Shown here: positions 8,640 to 56,897 of the stretch, in pieces
Layout of the letters: every line of letters starts with the position of its first letter
Position numbering within the stretch: position 1 is the stretch's first letter
Source of the DNA: Burkholderiaceae bacterium
Lineage (GTDB): Bacteria; Pseudomonadota; Gammaproteobacteria; Burkholderiales; Burkholderiaceae_B
Direction of reading: 5' to 3'
NCBI GenBank assembly: GCA_004322135.1
Contig: SCSG01000004.1
Coordinates: 186,001 to 250,000 of the forward strand
DNA: 64,000 bases
Notes under the pieces: generated by a model
Seen by the model: only the letters and a program-made list of their open reading frames with translations
Databases searched by the model: none
Told to the model about the DNA's origin: nothing
Position numbers and translations under genes: made by a program

Positions 8640-10520
8640 ATGATCTATTCCGGCGACCACCAGCACATCGAATCGATGGAGTACCGCACCCTATCGGCAC
8701 GAGCTGTGGCGCAGATCATCCTGAACGGCTTTGATCGCCACTACGCCTTGTTCCGGTATAGCGCGCAACGCGCCAAGTCGCTGTTCGAATCGGGCGGCTG
8801 GCGCGATATCCAGCAACTATCGCGCGAGCGCATCGAATATTACGACACCCGCGTCCACGAATGCACGTCCACGCTGAACGCCGCACTGAAGGGCAGCCAC
8901 CTCATGCCTGGCCGCGACGACAATGCCACCCCCGAGCTAAGCGCCACACAGCAGGCGTTCTGGCAAAACACAAAGATCGAGTACATCACGCTGCTGGCCG
9001 GACACAAACAGCCCGAATGCGCCGAAACGTTCTTCAACTCGGTATCGTGCCGCATCCTGCACCGGGACTACTTCCGCAACGAATTCCTGTTCGTACACCC
9101 AGCCGTTTCTACCGAATACATCGACAGCAAGCTGCCCGCCTATCGCGTGTACTACCCGGCCACCGAAGGCCTGGAAAAGTCACTGATCAACATGGTGGCC
9201 GACTTCGGTCTGGCCGCACCCTTTGCCGACCTCCCCACTGACGCCCGTCAGGTGGCGCGCATGGCGGTGCACCAGTTGCGCCAGATCATCCCGCGCGACA
9301 GCGGGCAGCGCCTTGCTCCCGACTGCCAGATCCACGTGCTGAATTCCCTGTTCTTCCGGAACAAAGGGGCCTACATCGTGGGACGGCTCATCAATCATGC
9401 GGCGATCTTCCCGTTTGCCATCGCGCTGCTGCAAACACCCGCGGGCCTCGTTACCCTGGACGCCCTGCTGCACTCCGGCGACGACCTGAGCACGCTGTTC
9501 AGCTTTACCCGCGCCTATTTCCTGGTCGACATGGAAGCGCCTTCGTCATATGTGGACTTCCTGAGCACGCTGCTTCCACGCAAGGCCAAGGCCGAAATCT
9601 ACAGTACCCTTGGCCTGCAAAAGCAGGGCAAGACCCTGTTTTACCGCGATTTTCTGCGGCACCTCACACATTCACACGACAATTTCGATGCAGCACCCGG
9701 AATCAAGGGCCTGGTGATGATCGTCTTCACACTGGCCTCGTACCCTTATGTATTCAAGCTCATACGCGACAATATTTCCAAGCCCGGCATGGATCACGCA
9801 ACCGTGCGACGCAAATACCAGATGGTAAAACGGCACGACCGGGTGGGACGGATGGCCGATACCTGGGAGTACTCGCAGGTGGCTCTGCCTCGTGCGCGCT
9901 TTTCCGATGCATTGCTGCAAGAGCTGCGGCGCACCGTTCCCAGCCTGATCGACGAAACGGGCGAATCCATCATCCTGCGCCATGTCTACATCGAGCGGCG
10001 CATGACCCCGCTCAACCTGTACCTGGCACGCGCCTCCGACGCCGCCGCACAAGCCGCCGTCAAACAATACGGCGACGCCATCCGCGAGCTGGCCGCCGCC
10101 AATATTTTCCCGGGCGACATGCTCTTCAAGAACTTCGGAGTCACCCGGCTCGGGCGCGTCGTTTTCTACGACTACGACGAAATACAGCGCATGACCGACA
10201 TGAACTTCCGGCGCATTCCGCCCGCACCCTACGAAGAAGCGGAGATGGCTTCCGAACCCTGGTACGCGGTGGGCGCCAACGATGTATTCCCGGAAGAATT
10301 CCGTACCTTTCTGCTTGGCAACGATCGCATCGCCCGCAGTTTCGAAAAATACCACGTCAACCTGCTGGAGCCAGAATGGTGGCAGGCCTGCCGCAGCCGG
10401 GCCAACCAGGGCCGTATCGAAGACATCTTTCCCTATGAAGAAAGCCGCAGGCTGCGCAGTGCTAAAGTACACTTGACGGCGTCAGGATCCCTCAATCCGC
10501 ATCACTACACCACCGACTAG
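8640..10520 (+). CDS. aceK: Isocitrate dehydrogenase kinase/phosphatase
   Basis: 626 residues, slightly longer than the E. coli enzyme. The conserved AceK opening (LNGFDRHYALFRYSAQRAKSLFE), the regulatory N-terminal domain and the C-terminal kinase-like domain with GVTRLGRVVFYDYDEI, an Asp-containing metal site, are recognisable. AceK reversibly phosphorylates isocitrate dehydrogenase to steer carbon into the glyoxylate bypass. It is not next to aceA or aceB here, but malate synthase G lies 18 kb away. The start at 8640 (MIYSGD) is favoured; Met at 8676 is an alternative. The thiolase follows after 13 bp. Confidence 0.95.
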   Translation: MIYSGDHQHIESMEYRTLSARAVAQIILNGFDRHYALFRYSAQRAKSLFESGGWRDIQQLSRERIEYYDTRVHECTSTLNAALKGSHLMPGRDDNATPELSATQQAFWQNTKIEYITLLAGHKQPECAETFFNSVSCRILHRDYFRNEFLFVHPAVSTEYIDSKLPAYRVYYPATEGLEKSLINMVADFGLAAPFADLPTDARQVARMAVHQLRQIIPRDSGQRLAPDCQIHVLNSLFFRNKGAYIVGRLINHAAIFPFAIALLQTPAGLVTLDALLHSGDDLSTLFSFTRAYFLVDMEAPSSYVDFLSTLLPRKAKAEIYSTLGLQKQGKTLFYRDFLRHLTHSHDNFDAAPGIKGLVMIVFTLASYPYVFKLIRDNISKPGMDHATVRRKYQMVKRHDRVGRMADTWEYSQVALPRARFSDALLQELRRTVPSLIDETGESIILRHVYIERRMTPLNLYLARASDAAAQAAVKQYGDAIRELAAANIFPGDMLFKNFGVTRLGRVVFYDYDEIQRMTDMNFRRIPPAPYEEAEMASEPWYAVGANDVFPEEFRTFLLGNDRIARSFEKYHVNLLEPEWWQACRSRANQGRIEDIFPYEESRRLRSAKVHLTASGSLNPHHYTTD

Positions 10521-44992: not shown

Positions 44993-45877
44993 ATGGCAAG
45001 AATCATCGGCAGCATCGGCACCTCACACGTGCCCACCATCGGCGTCGCATACGACAAGGGCCGCCAGAACGACCCGGCCTGGGCTCCGCTGTTCAACGGC
45101 TACAAGCCGGTAGCGGCCTGGCTGGCCGAGAAAAAGCCGGACGCCATGGTCATTATCTACAACGACCACGCCACCACGTTCTTCTTCGACATGTACCCCA
45201 CGTTCGCACTGGGCGTAGGCAAACGCTTTCCCATTGCCGACGAAGGCGCGGGCCTGCGCAAGCTCCCCGCCATAAAGGGCAACGTCGATCTACAGTGTCA
45301 TATCGCCGAATCGCTGGTCAACGACGAATTCGACTTGACCATCTTTCAGGAAAAGCCCATCGACCATGGCTGTGCCTCGCCGCTGCCGCTGTTGTGGCCG
45401 CATGAACCCGACTGGCCGGGCGCCGTCGTGCCGGTGGCTGTCAACGTGCTGCAATACCCGTTGCCTACGCCACGCCGCTGCTACAAACTTGGCCAGGCCC
45501 TGCGCCGCGCCATCGAATCGTATCCGGAAGATCTCAAGGTCGTCATCGTCGGCACGGGCGGCCTGTCTCACCAGATCCATGGCGAACGCACCGGCTTTAA
45601 CAACGAAGAGTGGGACCACGAATTCCTGCGTCTGCTGCAATTCGAACCCGAAAAGCTCACCGAAATGACACACGCCGACTTCGTTCGCCTGGGCGGCGCC
45701 GAAAGTGTCGAACAAATCATGTGGCTGGCCATGCGGGGCGCCATGCCAAAGCATATTCGCAAACTGCATCAAAACTATTACCTGGCCACCACTACGGCCA
45801 TGACTGTGGCTCTCTTCGAAGAGGGTGAAGAACCCACCACGCAAGCAGCCAGCCACAAGGCTACCGCCACCGCCTAA
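44993..45877 (+). CDS. ligB: Class III extradiol dioxygenase, protocatechuate 4,5-dioxygenase beta subunit type
   Basis: 294 residues, very similar in layout to LigB/PmdB (302). Iron-site residues are visible: His12 in TSHVPTIG, His59 in IYNDHA, and Glu in GGAESVEQIMW; GTGGLSHQ carries the conserved catalytic histidine. It cleaves a catechol-type acid (protocatechuate or gallate) between carbons 4 and 5. The ATG at 44993 has AGGA upstream, and the frame before it does not resemble the family. The alpha subunit follows 11 bp later, the reverse of the usual ligA-ligB order. Confidence 0.92.
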   Translation: MARIIGSIGTSHVPTIGVAYDKGRQNDPAWAPLFNGYKPVAAWLAEKKPDAMVIIYNDHATTFFFDMYPTFALGVGKRFPIADEGAGLRKLPAIKGNVDLQCHIAESLVNDEFDLTIFQEKPIDHGCASPLPLLWPHEPDWPGAVVPVAVNVLQYPLPTPRRCYKLGQALRRAIESYPEDLKVVIVGTGGLSHQIHGERTGFNNEEWDHEFLRLLQFEPEKLTEMTHADFVRLGGAESVEQIMWLAMRGAMPKHIRKLHQNYYLATTTAMTVALFEEGEEPTTQAASHKATATA

Positions 45878-45888
45878 GGAGACCGGCT

Positions 45889-46248
45889 ATGAATCCGCAA
45901 GTAAAAGGCATGGAAGAGCTGGGCGGCACGTACGCCTTCGACATCCGCACCAGCAACAGAACACTTAACCTGAACCGCTTCCTGTGGAAGATGATCGGCC
46001 AGGACTGGCGTGACCGCTACCAGGCAGACCCGGAAGCCGTCATGCAAGAGGCCGAGCTGAACGACACGGAAAAAGACCTCCTGCGCAAGCAGGACTGGCT
46101 TGGTCTGGTAAAACATGGCGCAAATTTTTTCGTGCTGGAAAAATTCGCGCGGGTAGTCCACAAAACCAACCTCGAGGTCTATGCCAGCATGCGCGGCGAA
46201 ACGTTTGAAGAGTTCATGCAGACGCGGCGGGTACCCGCCTCGCGCTGA
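45889..46248 (+). CDS. ligA: Protocatechuate 4,5-dioxygenase alpha subunit type
   Basis: 119 residues, mostly helical. GTYAFDIRTSNRTLNLNRFLW and the LRKQDWLGLVKHGANFF segment are characteristic of LigA, which caps the active site of the LigB catalytic subunit. AAGGAG lies just upstream of the ATG. The separate small subunit argues against the single-chain gallate dioxygenase of Pseudomonas (GalA), though substrate choice between protocatechuate, gallate and methylgallate cannot be settled from sequence. Confidence 0.92.
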   Translation: MNPQVKGMEELGGTYAFDIRTSNRTLNLNRFLWKMIGQDWRDRYQADPEAVMQEAELNDTEKDLLRKQDWLGLVKHGANFFVLEKFARVVHKTNLEVYASMRGETFEEFMQTRRVPASR

Positions 46249-50516: not shown

Positions 50517-51434
50517 TCAGGCCGCGTCCTTGCTGCGCCGCATCGTATCAACAAGTCGAGTCCACTCAAATTTTTCTTTGGCGTCATACTTCAAGCCCAG
50601 ATCCCGCATGCGGTCTACGAATGCATCCTGCAATTGCGCCGTGGCACTCGCCATAAGCGGGTCGATGTCCACGTCCCGCAATGTTTCAGCCACTTCGCGC
50701 ATCTCGGCCGCACGACGGCGCCCATGCTCGGCAACGCGGCTGATCAGGTAGTTGGGCTGACGATCGGTCCAGCCCATCCCCGGAAAAGTCTCGGCCAGCG
50801 ACGCAAGCACCTCCTGCTCGGCGCCGTAGGACCGCGCTGCAGTCAGGCACTCGACCGTCAACGCCTCAATTCCCTTGATCATGACGCTGCGGCACATCTT
50901 GATGGCTGAAGCCACACCCACTTTGGTGGCTACGGCGCGAGTATGAAACCCCAACCGATTCAGGCTTTCCGCCAGCACGGCGGCTTGTGCGCCACCCAGC
51001 AGCATCGGCACCTTGAGCCCATACGGCGGCACTGGCGCCATAACGGCGGACTCTACATAAAACGCCCCGGAACGTTCGACGGCATTGCGATCAAGGCCCT
51101 TGGTACCGGGTGATACGGAATTGATGTCCATGAAATACTGGCCGGGCTTCAGAAAGCCCGCCGTCGCCTCAGCCGCATCCCGGGCCGAACTGGCCGTGAC
51201 CGCCGATATGACCAGATCCGCTCCGGACACGGCACCTTGAAGACTATCGTGCAACACCACGCCCAGCGCCGCGGCGCGTTCCGCCAACGCGGGACGTAAC
51301 TCGGCTTTCAGCACCTTGATATCGTACGTGGCAACTTTGGCACCGGCCTTCACGCAGCCCTGTGCGAGCAACGACCCCGCCTCGCCAAAACCTACCAGTG
51401 CAATCGAACTCAATACAGCGGGCACATTCGTCAC
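50517..51434 (-). CDS. NAD(P)-dependent dehydrogenase with DUF1932 C-terminal domain
   Basis: 305 residues. An N-terminal Rossmann fold (ALVGFGEAGSLLAQG) of the 6-phosphogluconate/3-hydroxyisobutyrate dehydrogenase family and a C-terminal DUF1932 helical domain with SAIKMCRSVMIKGIEALTVEC containing the catalytic-type lysine. The reaction is unknown. GTG at 51434 is the start: AAGGA lies 9 bp upstream, inside the last codons of the NTF2-like gene, giving translational coupling. Last gene of the galB operon. Confidence 0.87.
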   Translation of the reverse strand: MTNVPAVLSSIALVGFGEAGSLLAQGCVKAGAKVATYDIKVLKAELRPALAERAAALGVVLHDSLQGAVSGADLVISAVTASSARDAAEATAGFLKPGQYFMDINSVSPGTKGLDRNAVERSGAFYVESAVMAPVPPYGLKVPMLLGGAQAAVLAESLNRLGFHTRAVATKVGVASAIKMCRSVMIKGIEALTVECLTAARSYGAEQEVLASLAETFPGMGWTDRQPNYLISRVAEHGRRRAAEMREVAETLRDVDIDPLMASATAQLQDAFVDRMRDLGLKYDAKEKFEWTRLVDTMRRSKDAA

Positions 51435-51438
51435 TTTT

Positions 51439-51885
51439 CTATTCCTTGTACATAATGAACGGGGATTCACGCTGAGCAATTCGCCACCCTTGCGGTGTCT
51501 TGGCGAACTCGTCACGAAATTCACCCAATACCTGGCGCGGGTTGGCCTTGCGGCCGGACGCTTCAGCTGGCTGATCGGGGCTGGTGCTCCACAGCAGCAC
51601 ATAACTGACTGACTTGGCCGACTTACTGGTCGTTTCCAGGAATACGGTATTGCTTATCAGATGCCGGGTAATGCGGCCAGCTGGCCCGTCGCGATACGAG
51701 GCCAATATTTCAGCACGCCCATTCAGCAGGATTCCACCGGGTCGCGTCAACTGCGCCGTTTCGGTAAACAGCGCCGCAAGCGCTTCATGATCCTGCCGAT
51801 CCCTGTAGTAGGCCGACCACGCAACGAGGTCCTTGCAAAGGCTCTGAACCGCATACAGCTCGGCACTCAATTCCACGACACTCAT
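51439..51885 (-). CDS. NTF2/SnoaL-like fold protein
   Basis: 148 residues with the cone-shaped NTF2-like pattern: an N-terminal helix (CKDLVAWSAYYRDRQDHEALAALF), TARPGGILLNGR-like strand region and RITRHLISN, then curved strands. The family includes dioxygenase beta subunits, hydratases and isomerases of aromatic pathways. GGGAGGAG lies before the ATG. Position in the galB operon suggests an isomerase or hydratase role that cannot be named. Confidence 0.83.
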   Translation of the reverse strand: MSVVELSAELYAVQSLCKDLVAWSAYYRDRQDHEALAALFTETAQLTRPGGILLNGRAEILASYRDGPAGRITRHLISNTVFLETTSKSAKSVSYVLLWSTSPDQPAEASGRKANPRQVLGEFRDEFAKTPQGWRIAQRESPFIMYKE

Positions 51886-51936
51886 CAGACTCCTCCCAAT
51901 TAAACAAACACGCTTACCCGCGCCGAACACGCGCTG

Positions 51937-52668
51937 TCAGGCGTGAGGCGCGGATTCCAGCCATTGCGCGAGGATCCCGGCCACAGCTTGTGGCTGCTCC
52001 ATGACGGTCATGTGGCCAGAGTCCTCGACCACGCGCAGCGAACCTACGTGGGCAGGCAATAGCTGCAGCATGGCCTCATGGCGGGCCAACGGACTCCAGG
52101 CATCCTGACGCCCGCAAACAAGCACGGTGGGGCAGGCCAACGCCTGCAACACTGGCGTGGCATCGGGGCGCGCAAGCAACGCATTGATCTGACCGCTGAA
52201 CTGCCCGGGGGTGAACCGCGCAATCATGGCGAGAATCTCTTCAAACAAAGGGGTTTCCAACTGCTGTGAATGCACCATGCCCGCCGCCCACACCGTGCCC
52301 ATGGCGCGCATGCCGCGCTCTTGTGCAGTGGCGAGCAGCGCCAGGCGCTTGTTGCGTTCGATATCCCCGGCGTTACCGCCCGCGATAGGTTGGTAACCCG
52401 TATCGAGCAGGGCAAGGCGCTGCACCCGCTCGGGCGCCAGGCGTGCGACTTCCAGCGCGACGCGTCCACCCATGGAATGCCCGGCCAGCGAAAACGTTCG
52501 GTATGGCACAGCGTCGAGCACTTTTCGAGCCATGCCGCCGATGGTGTCCTGGTTCTTGTATTCCGGAACGAACGTATCCGCACGCGAGGCCAACGCCGCT
52601 CTGGGGCCGGCCCAGGCCGCTTCGTCGCACAACAAGCCGGGAAGAAGAACCAGCTCGTGCCGCGCCAC
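51937..52668 (-). CDS. Alpha/beta hydrolase
   Basis: 243 residues with nucleophile elbow LAGHSMGGRVALE, acid in CGRQDAWSPL and histidine in EDSGHMTVMEQP. The lid region is of the enol-lactonase/esterase type (PcaD-like relatives). GTG start at 52668 with AAGG just upstream, 3 bp after the stop of the galD remnant. In this pathway it could hydrolyse a lactone (2-pyrone dicarboxylate type) or methyl ester formed by ring cleavage, which is inference. Confidence 0.86.
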   Translation of the reverse strand: MARHELVLLPGLLCDEAAWAGPRAALASRADTFVPEYKNQDTIGGMARKVLDAVPYRTFSLAGHSMGGRVALEVARLAPERVQRLALLDTGYQPIAGGNAGDIERNKRLALLATAQERGMRAMGTVWAAGMVHSQQLETPLFEEILAMIARFTPGQFSGQINALLARPDATPVLQALACPTVLVCGRQDAWSPLARHEAMLQLLPAHVGSLRVVEDSGHMTVMEQPQAVAGILAQWLESAPHA

Positions 52669-52671
52669 GCC

Positions 52672-52815
52672 TTACGCCGCCTTTTTGTCGGGCCACACCC
52701 GCTGCGGTACATGCACATTGCCGTCAAGCACCCAGCGCGCCGTGCGAATCAGTGCGGCGCTACGCACTTGTGACGTGCCGCCACGCATCTGGACACAGGG
52801 AATACGAATTTGCAT
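52672..52815 (-). pseudogene. Internal-deletion remnant of a 4-oxalomesaconate tautomerase (GalD/PrpF family) gene
   Basis: A 47-codon open frame. Codons 1-15 read IRIPCVQMRGGTS, the hallmark N terminus of PrpF/GalD proteins, and the following residues RSAALIRTARWVLDGNVHVP match their extreme C terminus. The ~300 residues normally between are missing, with an in-frame joint near 52770. Intact family members have about 360 residues. Neighbours galB and ligK fit GalD perfectly, so a once-complete gene has been deleted internally. The product can hardly be an active diaminopimelate-epimerase-fold enzyme. Confidence 0.8.
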
Positions 52816-52826
52816 GATAAAACTCG

Positions 52827-53522
52827 TTAAATATCTTCAAGTGAATCAACGTAGCGCAGCCCCTTGGCTTCAAGTTTTTCGCGCATTTTGTAGTAATCGA
52901 GCCCCAGCGTGCCACTTGCCAGAACCTTGCGCGTAACGTTTTCCTTGTCAAGCCGCGCCTGTGCAGCCACCGCTACTTTGACCGCCGTAGCAACCGGAAC
53001 GACCACGACGCCGTCGTCGTCGGCAACGATGACATCGCCGGGGTTGACGATTTGCTGCGCGCAGACAACCGGTACATTGACCGAGCCCAGTGTTTCCTTG
53101 GACGTACCCTGTGCCGAAACCGCCCTGGACCAGACAGGAAAGCCCATTTCCTTCAGCGCCTTGGTATCGCGGCAGCCCGCATCAATGATCAGACCACGCA
53201 CGCCACGCGCCGCGAGTGACGTTGCCAGCAGCTCGCCGAAATAGCCGTCCAGGCACTCGGATGTGGGGGCGACAACCAGCACATCGCCTTCGCGGCACTG
53301 CTCGACCGCAACGTGCACCATCCAGTTGTCGGACGGCGCGGTCAGCACCGTGATGGCCGAACCGGCGATCGACGCGCCTTCCCAGATTGGCCGCATGTAC
53401 GGCGCCAGCAGGCCGAGGCGTTTTTGTGCTTCGTGCACGGTGGCCGAACCGGCTTTGCATAGAACGTCTATGTCCGCCGCGCTTGCGCGCGGAATATTGC
53501 GTACAACAACTCCCCGTATCAT
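52827..53522 (-). CDS. ligK: 4-carboxy-4-hydroxy-2-oxoadipate aldolase (RraA-like)
   Basis: 231 residues of the RraA/HMG aldolase family. [23 protein letters not shown], the [11 protein letters not shown] segment, [24 protein letters not shown] (Arg and Asp of the metal and pyruvate site) and [18 protein letters not shown] are as in LigK/GalC. It splits CHA to pyruvate and oxaloacetate, the last step of 4,5-cleavage. Its ATG overlaps the galB TGA (ATGA), so translation is coupled. Confidence 0.93.
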
Positions 53523-54262
53523 GAAAGGTCTCCTACGACAGTCGGCGTAAGCCGCATATAACCCTCGGCGTACTCGATATTGCGCGCCGCCGCTATGCCA
53601 ATATTACGCTTGGCCTGTACACCACGCTGCTGAGCCACCCTGGTGTAATACGCCCACAGGTGTTCCTGGCCGGCCATGCATTCAATGGCCTTGCGCTTGA
53701 GGTCCCAGACCTCGGTGATGTCGAGAAAAGTATTCGGAATCCACTCGCTCTGCTCGGTTTGATGGGGTTCGAACGCGTACACCGGCGGTGCTCCCAGAAC
53801 CTTCTGGCCAGGGTTGTGGCCCGCAGCCTGTGCGATGACGCGTGCCTCTTGTGTCACGTGCATGGCCAGTGGGTGATCAAAGTTATAGGGGTCCTTGACC
53901 GAGTGGCTCAGGACAAAAGACGGCCGCAACTCGCGGTACACATCAACCAGCCGCATCAGCGCTTCGTCGCTGACACGCATGGGGTAGTCGCCCAGGTCGA
54001 AGAATTCGATTTCGGCACCCAGGACGTCGGCTGCTTTCTGCGCTTCTTCACGCCGCGCCTCCTTGACTGCCTCGAGAGTGGTGGGGCCCTTGCGCCAGAT
54101 TTTGGCAGATTCGCCGCGTTCGCCGAACGACAGGCAAACGACCTTCATGCGATAACCCTGACGCACATGCACAGCAATGGCGCCAGCCGAACGCCAGACA
54201 AAGTCGGCGGAATGGGCGCTGACCACGAGACCAGCGCGAGGATTTCCTGTATTTTCAGTCAT
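53519..54262 (-). CDS. galB: 4-oxalomesaconate hydratase (PIG-L family, GalB)
   Basis: 247 residues with the PIG-L metal-binding pattern [16 protein letters not shown] (AHxxD type) and [15 protein letters not shown] with further His/Asp ligands. [12 protein letters not shown] is typical of GalB, the zinc hydratase turning 4-oxalomesaconate into CHA in gallate and protocatechuate 4,5-cleavage. First gene after the LysR regulator; GGTAAG precedes the ATG. Confidence 0.92.
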
Positions 54263-54483: not shown

Positions 54484-55731
54484 CTAATCCGTTTCCTGAC
54501 ACAGCGCACGCAATTCGGCGACGAACGACCGCATGCTGGCGCCCAGGTCACTGTCGGCACGCATGGTCAGCCCAATGTACCGGCCCGTTTCCCTGACCTC
54601 GACAGGCAACACCTGCAACAGACCCGCAGACACTCCGCGAATGATCTGCCGGCGGGAAAGCAGGGCCAGCCTGTTGCTATCCATCAGCAGGGCCTGCAAT
54701 ACCACGGCACTATTGACCTCCAGCGAAGCGTGCGGGGGGGCCACGCCATCGGCCGCGAAAGCGCGCTCGAAGGCGGCCCTGGCTGGTGTGCCGGTCAGGG
54801 GCGCAATCCAGGACTCGCCAACCAGATCACGCAAGCCAGCCAACGACTTCCCCACGAGGGGGTGTCCCTGGCGTACAACTACTGAAAGGGTATCTTCGAA
54901 CAGAGGCTCCTGCACCACATCGGCCGCAGTCAGCTCACCTCTTAACGCGCCCACCACCACATCAACGTCGGCATGGCGCAGCTGATGCATCAGTGCACCG
55001 TACGTTCCATCGACTATCGTAACGTTAAGGTCTTTATGCAGCGCCAGAACACGGTCCACCGCACGCGGCACGAGCACACCCGCCGACAAGGGCAGCGACC
55101 CGATGACGATGCGGCCCGACATCTTGCCATGCAGTGCCATCAAGTCTTCTTCCGCATGACGAAACTCCGCAAGGGCAAGCTTGGTGCGTCGCAGCACCGC
55201 CTCGCCGCTTTCAGTCAGGCGCACGCCCCGCACCGAGCGGTAGAAAAGTACACTGCCCAGCATATGCTCCAGCTGACGCAAAGTCTGATTTACGGCGGGC
55301 TGGCTCACACGCAGTCGGGCGGCCGCGGCAAGCTCGCCGCCCGTCTCACAGAAAGCCACATATGTCGCCAAATGCCGATAAGCGCAGGAGCCTGAAAACC
55401 GGCCCGCCATCTGCCAGGCTGCCCGCGCACCCGGGTCGGCAAGACTGCTGGCTTCCGTCTCGGCCAGCGCAAGCTGGGCCAATGCCCGCTCGGCGCGACG
55501 CGCAAGCAGCTTCCCTTCGGCCGTCATCAGCATCCCTCGCGCCGCGCGTTCGAACAGCGCCACGCCAAGCTGGCCTTCCAGCTCGCGGATCGCGCGCGCA
55601 ATCGCCGACGAAGACAAGGGCAGCAATTGTGCGGCGTGCGCAGCACTGCCAGCCCGACCCACGGCAAGCACGGAACGGAACTGCTTCAGATACCGGGCAA
55701 GTGACATCGACCTGCTGTGTCTATCGCGCAT
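54484..55731 (-). CDS. LysR family regulator with two N-terminal HTH domains
   Basis: 415 residues, about 110 longer than usual. Residues ~12-90 form a LysR helix-turn-helix (AAQLLPLSSSAIARAIRELE, LGVALFERAARG), and residues ~115-200 form a second one (LAAAARLRVSQPAVNQTLRQLE, GSVLFYRSVRGVRLTESG). A normal LysR substrate-binding domain follows. ATG at 55731 has GGGGGGCAG before it; Met at 55707 is the alternative and would still keep both. It precedes galB on the same strand and probably controls that operon. Confidence 0.9.
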   Translation of the reverse strand: MRDRHSRSMSLARYLKQFRSVLAVGRAGSAAHAAQLLPLSSSAIARAIRELEGQLGVALFERAARGMLMTAEGKLLARRAERALAQLALAETEASSLADPGARAAWQMAGRFSGSCAYRHLATYVAFCETGGELAAAARLRVSQPAVNQTLRQLEHMLGSVLFYRSVRGVRLTESGEAVLRRTKLALAEFRHAEEDLMALHGKMSGRIVIGSLPLSAGVLVPRAVDRVLALHKDLNVTIVDGTYGALMHQLRHADVDVVVGALRGELTAADVVQEPLFEDTLSVVVRQGHPLVGKSLAGLRDLVGESWIAPLTGTPARAAFERAFAADGVAPPHASLEVNSAVVLQALLMDSNRLALLSRRQIIRGVSAGLLQVLPVEVRETGRYIGLTMRADSDLGASMRSFVAELRALCQETD

Positions 55732-55826
55732 CTGCCCCCCATCATCCTCGTCTCCGACGCCCTCCGCGTCGCGCCACCCATCATACCCAAAGCGCCCTAC
55801 CGACGCCGCGTTTCTGCCCGCAACAA

Positions 55827-56897
55827 TCAGCCCAGCAACGCCACTGACTTCACCTGAGCCACAACACGGGCGCCGGCCGCGATGGCCAGTGCGCGGCACG
55901 AGCGCGCCGTCACCCTGGCCAGAAGCGTATCGCCGCCATGCAGCTCCAGCCGCACCAGCATCTGACCCGGTTCGACCATGGGAACCACGGCCCGCACGAT
56001 GGCCGGCAAAGCGTTCAAGATACTACTGCCCGAGGGCGCTGCAAGCGCAATACTGACATCACGCGCATGAATCCGGCAGCGCAAACGGATCCCCACGACT
56101 TCGGGGCGCTGCGACACATACAACTGCCCTCCCGCAAAATCCAGTCGGGTCAAACCGTCATCTTCGTGAGCAGCCACCGTCGTTTCCAGCACCACGCCTG
56201 CATCGCCCAGAAAGCCGCCAGGCAGGTCCGTGCGCGCCAGCGTTTCCTGAAGCGGCCCTCCCGCCGCCACCTTCCCCGCTTCCAGCAGGACCAGATAATC
56301 GGCCAGGCGCGCCACTTCATCGGGAGCATGACTGACGTACAGCACGGGAATGTCCAGCTCGCCATGCAACCTTTCCAGATAGGGCAGGATTTCAAGCTTG
56401 CGCACAACGTCCAGCGCGGCCAGCGGCTCATCCATCAGCAACAGCCGCGGCCTGGTCAGCAGCGCGCGCGCGATGGCTACCCGCTGGCGCTCGCCACCCG
56501 AGAGCCGTTCAGGCAGGCGGTCCAGCAAAGCCCCTATACCCAGCAGTTCCACAATGCCATCGAACCCTCTACTGTCCTTGTTGCCCGACCGCTTCATGCC
56601 ATAAGCCAAATTCCTGCGGACGGACAGGTGATTGAATAGACTGGCCTCCTGGAACACGAGGCCCATGGGGCGCTTGTGTGGCGCAAGAAAAACGCCGGTG
56701 GAAGAATTCTGCCAGACGCCGCCGTCAACCACCAGACGCGCACGAGGCGAACGGGTCAGTCCCGCAAAGCAGCGCAGTATCGTCGTCTTACCCGATCCCG
56801 AAGGGCCGAAGAGCGCCGTCACCCCCTTTTCGGGCAAGCGCAAATCCACGTCCAGACTGAAGCCAGGGTAGTCAAGGGCAAAGCGTGCTTCGATCAC
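55827..56897 (-). CDS. modC: Molybdate ABC transporter ATP-binding protein
   Basis: 356 residues. Walker [10 protein letters not shown], signature [14 protein letters not shown], Walker [13 protein letters not shown] and a C-terminal Mop/TOBE domain, as in ModC (352 in E. coli). It energises molybdate import. The start is GTG at 56897, overlapping the modB TGA by 4 bp (GTGA); upstream in-frame codons belong to modB. Confidence 0.95.

Follow-up and report, generated by a model that had tools for sequence, protein, structure and literature searches.

An apparent in-frame remnant of galD between ligK and a hydrolase gene in a Burkholderiaceae 4,5-cleavage operon

The operon considered here belongs to a pathway that degrades aromatic acids of plant origin, and the closest described systems are those of Pseudomonas putida, where GalD belongs to the gal operon, and of Sphingobium SYK-6, where the protein is LigU. 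According to a passage of one report, which cites an earlier study, GalB uses the enol form only and not the keto form (PMC9942251), and according to a passage of another the product of gallate cleavage was observed as the keto form only (PMC8431788). Taken together, the two passages argue for an isomerase as a necessary part of the pathway.

The DNA analysed here, referred to as the window, is a stretch of 64,000 nucleotides from a Burkholderiaceae bacterium (assembly GCA_004322135.1, contig SCSG01000004.1, positions 186,001 to 250,000). It carries an operon of this type in which a frame of 47 codons, read by an initial annotation as a galD/PrpF gene reduced to an internal-deletion scar, stands between ligK and a hydrolase gene. 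Pathway assignments are by homology and refer to one assembly of the species. The features are the following.

44993..45877, plus strand: LigB/DesB-type extradiol dioxygenase, ring-cleavage beta subunit; start set by alignment with 3wku
45889..46248, plus strand: LigA-type small subunit; family name by resemblance
50517..51602, minus strand: 6PGDH-type dehydrogenase with a DUF1932 domain (PF09130, PF03446); start likely further in
51439..51930, minus strand: SnoaL/NTF2-like protein (PF13577, E 9e-16); start likely further in
51937..52668, minus strand: alpha/beta hydrolase (PF00561/PF12697); GTG start 3 bp past the stop of the stub
52672..52770, minus strand: galD remnant, C-terminal piece, 32 codons and stop, in-frame fusion (NF033377 325-349)
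52771..52815, minus strand: galD remnant, N-terminal piece, 15 codons, MQIRIPCVQMRGGTS (PF04303 1-15)
52827..53522, minus strand: ligK/galC, 4-carboxy-4-hydroxy-2-oxoadipate aldolase (NF006731, TIGR02798, 3noj)
53519..54262, minus strand: galB, PIG-L-type 4-oxalomesaconate hydratase (PF02585; 5cgz, E 1.2e-117)
54484..55899, minus strand: LysR-type regulator upstream of galB; name by resemblance, start likely further in

The 47-residue frame (52672-52815, minus strand) starts with ATG, stops with TAA and reads MQIRIPCVQMRGGTS-QVRSAALIRTARWVLDGNVHVPQRVWPDKKAA. Its residues 2-16 align with positions 1-15 of the Pfam model PrpF (PF04303; E 2.5e-4, two stretches), and residues 13-37 with positions 325-349, the extreme end, of the 349 positions of the NCBIfam model OMA_tautomer (NF033377; E 0.0058). 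Both the N-terminal motif and the C-terminal end of the PrpF/GalD fold are thus found, and the scores, 20.5 bits against a gathering score of 27 for PF04303 and 15.6 against a curated cut-off of 440 for NF033377, are not those of a full-length domain. When the GalD of Eoetvoesiella caeni is searched against the window's genome, its residues 332-363 match the C-terminal piece (69%, E 1e-7) and its residues 1-16 match the N-terminal piece at 88%, with an E-value of 0.17 when taken alone, but in order and in the same frame; 14 of the 15 residues of the N-terminal piece are identical. That both ends of a single family occur in order and in one frame, at the site that galD has in relatives, is on sequence grounds more than chance would give. 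By these alignments, the frame is made up of the first 15 and the last 32 codons of a galD gene (4-oxalomesaconate tautomerase/isomerase, PrpF family) fused in frame. The scar proposed initially is therefore borne out, since PF04303 and NF033377 match one end each and E. caeni GalD matches both, and so are its spacing, with gaps of 11 bp to ligK and 3 bp to the hydrolase gene, and the in-frame join placed near 52770, which falls at 52770/52771. The first ~15 residues thought to be retained also agree, while the last ~25 become 32 codons.

In E. caeni (DSM 25520, G001), the one other genome of the genus compared, the two genes that flank the stub enclose a full-length galD. Directly after ligK, a galD of 363-366 residues is present in E. 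caeni, G035, G017 and G019, four genomes of the same family fetched for having the closest LigK (75-90%), and these proteins score 368-381 bits with the PrpF model. Six further relatives with LigK at 58-67% (G007, G004, G006, G029, G045 and G038) have no galD directly adjoining ligK: in G029 it is 1.2 kb away, in G004 a galD-sized PrpF member is on a different contig, and galB is within 1.5 kb of ligK in G004 only, one of the six. For G045 (L010), a member of the same order whose LigK is at 61%, there is no PrpF-family match and no galB within 1.5 kb of ligK.

E. caeni GalD matches structures of (4E)-oxalomesaconate Delta-isomerase with an E-value of 4e-144; these we take to be LigU of SYK-6. 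Compared with this GalD of 366 residues, approximately residues 16-333 are missing from the stub, that is, 318 codons or ~954 bp. The deleted part includes the Lys and Cys positions that differ in 6p3h (M for K) and 6p3k (S for C), which are presumably active-site mutants of LigU, with the Lys and the Cys as the presumed catalytic residues. Located through these two structures, the catalytic Lys and Cys of the PrpF/GalD family are absent from the stub. Given that both presumed catalytic residues and nearly the whole fold are missing, the 47-residue product is not expected to be an enzyme; the sequence is lost outright, and activity would be lost with it.

In E. caeni, galD overlaps the hydrolase gene (TAATG). 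In the window, a shift into either of the other two frames at the junction would end translation within the next few codons, at the 4th or the 8th, which is ~80-90 nt short of the hydrolase start, so that the in-frame fusion preserves close coupling. Tight coupling of galD and the hydrolase gene is nonetheless not general, given that the gap in G019 is 15 bp. Selection to keep downstream translation, which the initial annotation had suggested, is therefore no more than hinted at: the coupling is kept by the in-frame fusion, but one fusion in three would be in frame by chance, and the gap in G019 speaks against it.

The rest of the operon is kept, as had been claimed for GalB and LigK. LigK scores 372.7 bits with NF006731 (cut-off 179) and 352.3 bits with TIGR02798 (cut-off 304.5), and matches 3noj with an E-value of 8e-96; galB, which overlaps ligK by 4 bp, encodes a protein at 90% to E. 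caeni GalB. The OMA hydratase and the CHA aldolase of the 4,5-cleavage pathway are thus both encoded. The alpha/beta hydrolase gene adjoins intact galD in E. caeni, and the LysR-type regulator (54484..55899) has orthologues at 62-76% in L043-L049. A ring-cleavage dioxygenase of the LigAB/GalA/DesB type is also present: the best match of the LigB-type protein (44993..45877) is gallate dioxygenase 3wku (E 3e-100), with the protocatechuate 4,5-dioxygenase beta subunit 1b4u at E 2e-84, and orthologues of the LigA-type subunit adjoin ligB in E. caeni (88%) and G035 (77%). The window's genome has six PF02900 matches. The cluster further holds a formaldehyde dehydrogenase (TIGR02819) and a Rieske demethylase-like protein (dicamba O-demethylase 3gb4, E 5e-49); these two and the LigB- and LigA-type genes lie 5-11 kb from the operon. 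This suggests that the input of the pathway is methoxylated aromatic acids, such as syringate or vanillate. Comparison of the cluster with galD-bearing loci gave no gene with a clear claim to be specific to galD loss: intact galD has the LLM protein, the second hydrolase and MarR for neighbours in L045, and the remaining cluster genes occur in other galD-bearing loci. The counterparts of a VanA/VanB-like pair, named by resemblance, are no more than distant (36% and 30% in E. caeni).

Searches were made for a complete galD or a distant homologue elsewhere in the genome, the former proposed by the initial annotation as a check and the latter as a possible substitute, and neither was found: the PrpF model gave no match at E 0.001 in the whole assembly (3.38 Mb, 49 contigs), and E. 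caeni GalD gave nothing beyond the two stub ends. No part of the galD middle is on any of the 49 contigs. The assembly is 95.7% complete, with 3.4% contamination, so that ~4% of the genome may be missing, and within this completeness it holds no OMA tautomerase/isomerase gene of the PrpF family. Among the 61 genomes searched, the window's own included, 39 have at least one full-length PrpF-family gene and the window's has none.

The stub retains the constraint of an intact gene to a large extent. Compared with E. caeni, dN is 0.03 for the N-terminal piece and 0.14 for the C-terminal piece (26 codons), with dS of 1.6-1.7; for the intact pair L042-L043, the same pieces of galD give dN of 0 and 0.15. 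At the 31-37 positions comparable across five outgroups, 3-5 replacements are found in the window only and 0-1 in the sister only, against ~17-26 window-only replacements expected had the stub been neutral throughout. The unconstrained fraction of the branch since E. caeni is estimated at 1-7% (95% upper limits of 13-30%), a rough figure which takes half-branch dS as 0.36-0.56 and the background rate as 8%. Decay of the stub was also sought through deviations at conserved positions and discarded, with 3 of 22 (70% threshold) falling inside the range of 0-7 of intact genes (53 rows). By these rates the deletion is recent; with constraint on the stub near that of an intact gene, too little time has passed since then for conserved galB and ligK to prove a working pathway.

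Conservation of these neighbours is high: galB deviates at one of 91 and ligK at one of 85 positions that are 95% conserved, and galB, ligK, ligA, ligB and fdhA have open frames with dN/dS of 0.05-0.11 against E. caeni and G035, values which mostly predate the deletion. For galB and ligK in particular, the timing of the stub indicates that conservation is mostly older than the loss of galD. Replacements in GalB that are window-only outnumber those that are sister-only (19:3, 16:5, 17:4, 13:4, 13:4 and 13:7 with outgroups L043, L047, L048, L049, L044 and L045, of which L044 and L049 share their sequence and are effectively one). A window-only excess like that of GalB is seen for fdhA (16:8, 20:7) and the downstream hydrolase (28:16, 29:12, 30:17, 33:19). 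The counts for ligK are 9:9, 8:7, 3:10, 7:9, 7:9 and 8:7, with no acceleration, and LysR, at 22:27 and similar, has no window excess. The excess in GalB could reflect adaptation, the onset of relaxed constraint and decay, or a lineage that evolves faster overall.

Several proteins were considered as candidates for the missing step. The SnoaL/NTF2-like protein at 51439, to which tautomerisation had been tentatively assigned, was rejected as a replacement for GalD, since it accompanies intact galD in E. caeni and relatives, adjoining it in E. caeni, L044 (= L049), L045 and L048. Spontaneous tautomerisation and a different input to the pathway, which the initial annotation also raised, are further candidate explanations. 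Proteins of the 4-oxalocrotonate-tautomerase family are encoded at two places of the window's genome (C39 and C33), and also in E. caeni. Elsewhere in the window's genome there are a LigI-type PDC hydrolase (4d8l, E 4e-70) and a LigJ-type hydratase, G000:C24:25380-26441 (L168, L191), which matches 6dwv with E 9e-131 and 2gwg with E 2e-152. The LigJ-type gene belongs to a different cluster, whose other genes look, by eye, oxygenase-like, aldolase-like and CobW-like. In a passage of a further report, LigJ is listed as 2-keto-4-carboxy-3-hexenedioate hydratase beside the tautomerase LigU (PMC12997858); being named there as the enzyme after LigU, LigJ alone would not be expected to replace GalD.

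The distribution of LigJ was compared with that of galD. E. caeni has a LigJ relative at 36-39% only, and there is no match at E 1e-20 in G017, G019, L047 and L048; among six galD-bearing relatives of the family LigJ is present in G035 alone (79%), which carries both genes. In Paraburkholderia, all six genomes with galD missing or broken have a LigJ (59-64%), as do seven of eight galD-bearing Paraburkholderia, Caballeronia and Burkholderia genomes (at least 59%), and galD-less Achromobacter animicus has none. In raw counts, LigJ is present in 7 of 8 galD-less and 8 of 14 galD-bearing genomes. The association with galD loss is loose, because galD and LigJ coexist in G035 and in the seven of eight genomes above, and A. 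animicus is without LigJ.

LigC, the CHMS dehydrogenase, which belongs to the protocatechuate branch only, has no orthologue in the window's genome, where the best match is 35% over 133 residues (E 4.5e-12). It is present at 60-71% in all five other galD-bearing relatives of the family searched, E. caeni being the source of the query, and a LigC of this kind is absent from all 14 galD-bearing genomes outside the family (matches of at most 36%). Given that these 14 genomes carry galD without LigC, the loss of LigC was rejected as a rule by which galD becomes dispensable, and a missing LigC does not mean that the gallate route is dead.

Most probably, a single internal deletion of ~950 bp, of recent date and in frame by chance or kept so, has put galD out of action in this lineage, in an operon that is otherwise intact. 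Such a deletion would leave the in-frame stub of 47 codons as a loss-of-function allele, and translation would pass to the downstream genes across the 11 bp after ligK and the 3 bp before the hydrolase gene. With GalB, LigK and the nearby ring-cleavage dioxygenase kept, the pathway, if it runs, would receive enol OMA through uncatalysed tautomerisation or an unrelated isomerase, probably with lower flux; if it does not run, galB and ligK would be on their way out. We consider it rather likely that the pathway is still usable but slower, and hold its silencing at the galD step as a serious possibility, short of an even chance.

That the true genome has a full-length galD across which the contig was joined, by an error of assembly or a mixture of strains, is improbable. 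The evidence comes from one genome, and a stub without clear relaxation of constraint is what such an artefact would show, but the galD middle is nowhere in the 49 contigs, no long repeat common to the ends of the deletion is seen by eye in the sequences of relatives, and the fusion is exactly in frame, which chance gives one time in three. False joins by short-read assemblers normally need a long repeat. The open frame, the good spacing and the few replacements would also fit a new functional small protein of 47 residues; this is most improbable, as the two galD ends explain the sequence, a recent deletion predicts low divergence, and among the 30 surveyed loci without full-length galD a search able to find the window's stub gave a galD remnant in L077 alone, of another form.

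Takeover of the galD step by another protein, or a bypass through G000:C24:25380-26441 as an OMA hydratase of the LigJ type, is unlikely. It is favoured by the presence of LigJ, LigI and 4-oxalocrotonate-tautomerase-family proteins in the window's genome, and by the occurrence of LigJ in the window's genome and in the six galD-less or galD-broken Paraburkholderia but not, at close similarity, in E. caeni, G017, G019, L047 and L048. It loses ground with the galD-bearing genomes that also have LigJ, with A. animicus, which has none, and with the place that LigJ seems to take after an isomerase in the passage cited above; tautomerase-family proteins occur in E. caeni too, and the SnoaL-like protein goes with intact galD. 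A similarly doubtful reading has the whole 4,5-cleavage branch dying in this lineage, with galD lost first or after ligC. The faster change of GalB on the window branch agrees with it, and so does the missing LigC, which the galD-bearing relatives of the family have. The low dN/dS of galB, ligK, ligA, ligB and fdhA counts against it, mostly as a record of the time before the deletion, as do the lack of acceleration in ligK and the 14 galD-bearing genomes outside the family in which LigC is also absent.

Loss of galD in other genomes was surveyed at the best 80 of at least 99 loci with a GalB relative. The fetched flank contains a full-length galD at 50 of these 80 loci, and a ligK of at least 220 bits at 60, of which 47 have galD; the 20 loci without such a ligK were left out, including L095 and L088, whose genomes have no PrpF member. 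This leaves 13 loci with galB and ligK but no galD (L067, L068, L075, L077, L080, L086, L087, L098, L101, L107, L110, L116 and L119), and whole genomes were searched for PrpF for 12 of them, all but L116. A galD-sized PrpF member is elsewhere in the genome for L087, L101, L107, L110 and L119 (322-402 bits). L067, L068, L075, L077, L080, L098 and L086 have one full-length PrpF member each, at 563-592 bits, which from score and length looks like the 2-methylaconitate ("canonical") PrpF. A search that finds the window's stub gave no galD remnant in 29 of the 30 galD-less loci, with weak matches of 28-34% in L071 and L125. The A. animicus locus (L086) perhaps lies outside a complete pathway, given that this genome has one weak LigB match only (E 5e-36).

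The galD-less Paraburkholderia L067, L068, L075, L080 and L098 fall together as one group, placed among galD-bearing rows, in a quick tree (SH-aLRT support 98); over its 61 rows this tree requires at least six changes of state, for which gain and loss are indistinguishable. The fact that the five share the absence of galD means that their loss would be older than that of the window. Their dN/dS is 0.027-0.062 for galB and 0.023-0.056 for ligK (10 pairs each), compared with 0.008-0.096 and 0.042-0.164 in galD-bearing genomes (6 of 9 fetched rows, 15 pairs, at larger distances). These values indicate that selection on galB and ligK can persist long after the loss of galD, PrpF being a possible substitute. 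Four of the five, all but L075, have next after ligK a gene on the opposite strand which resembles, by eye, the aminotransferase-like gene of the G035 cluster.

At this locus a single enzyme has been cleanly deleted by nature from a well-studied aromatic pathway that is otherwise intact, and the case points towards a recurrent pattern in which galD is lost and galB and ligK are kept; no published galD loss was noticed in a literature search, although one may exist. It makes testable whether OMA tautomerase is needed in vivo or can be replaced by uncatalysed tautomerisation, a methylaconitate-type PrpF, LigJ or an altered GalB, which matters for engineering the use of lignin-derived aromatics through this node. 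More speculatively, and with little probability in our view, gallate-type 4,5-cleavage may proceed without any PrpF-family isomerase, with GalB of this lineage, which has its series of window-only replacements, or the additional LigJ accepting the dioxygenase product directly and the tautomerase being dispensable. If so, the galD losses in Paraburkholderia would be part of the same trend, with PrpF and LigJ in reserve.

Compared with GalD of the P. putida gal operon and LigU of SYK-6, the stub has both ends of the protein and the same place in the operon, beside ligK/galC and galB, and differs by the lack of ~318 internal codons and of both presumed catalytic residues. Paraburkholderia unamae, nodosa, hiiakae, sp. 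CNPSo 3272 and sp. CNPSo 3274 resemble the window in keeping galB and ligK with no galD adjoining, and no galD-sized PrpF member is found in these five genomes. They differ from it in having no galD remnant and one full-length PrpF, and because this PrpF is kept they are not a clean parallel. A further likeness is a galD pseudogene in Paraburkholderia haematera (L077, ~9409-9800), beside intact ligK and galB, in which an internal deletion also joins an N-terminal part to the C-terminal end; it differs in that ~60 N-terminal codons are kept, in that the pseudogene is out of frame and has in-frame stops, and in that the genome has one full-length PrpF. Judging from these differences, the loss in P. 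haematera is independent of that in the window, and by the comparisons made here galD is a gene lost more than once, sometimes without decay of the rest of the pathway.
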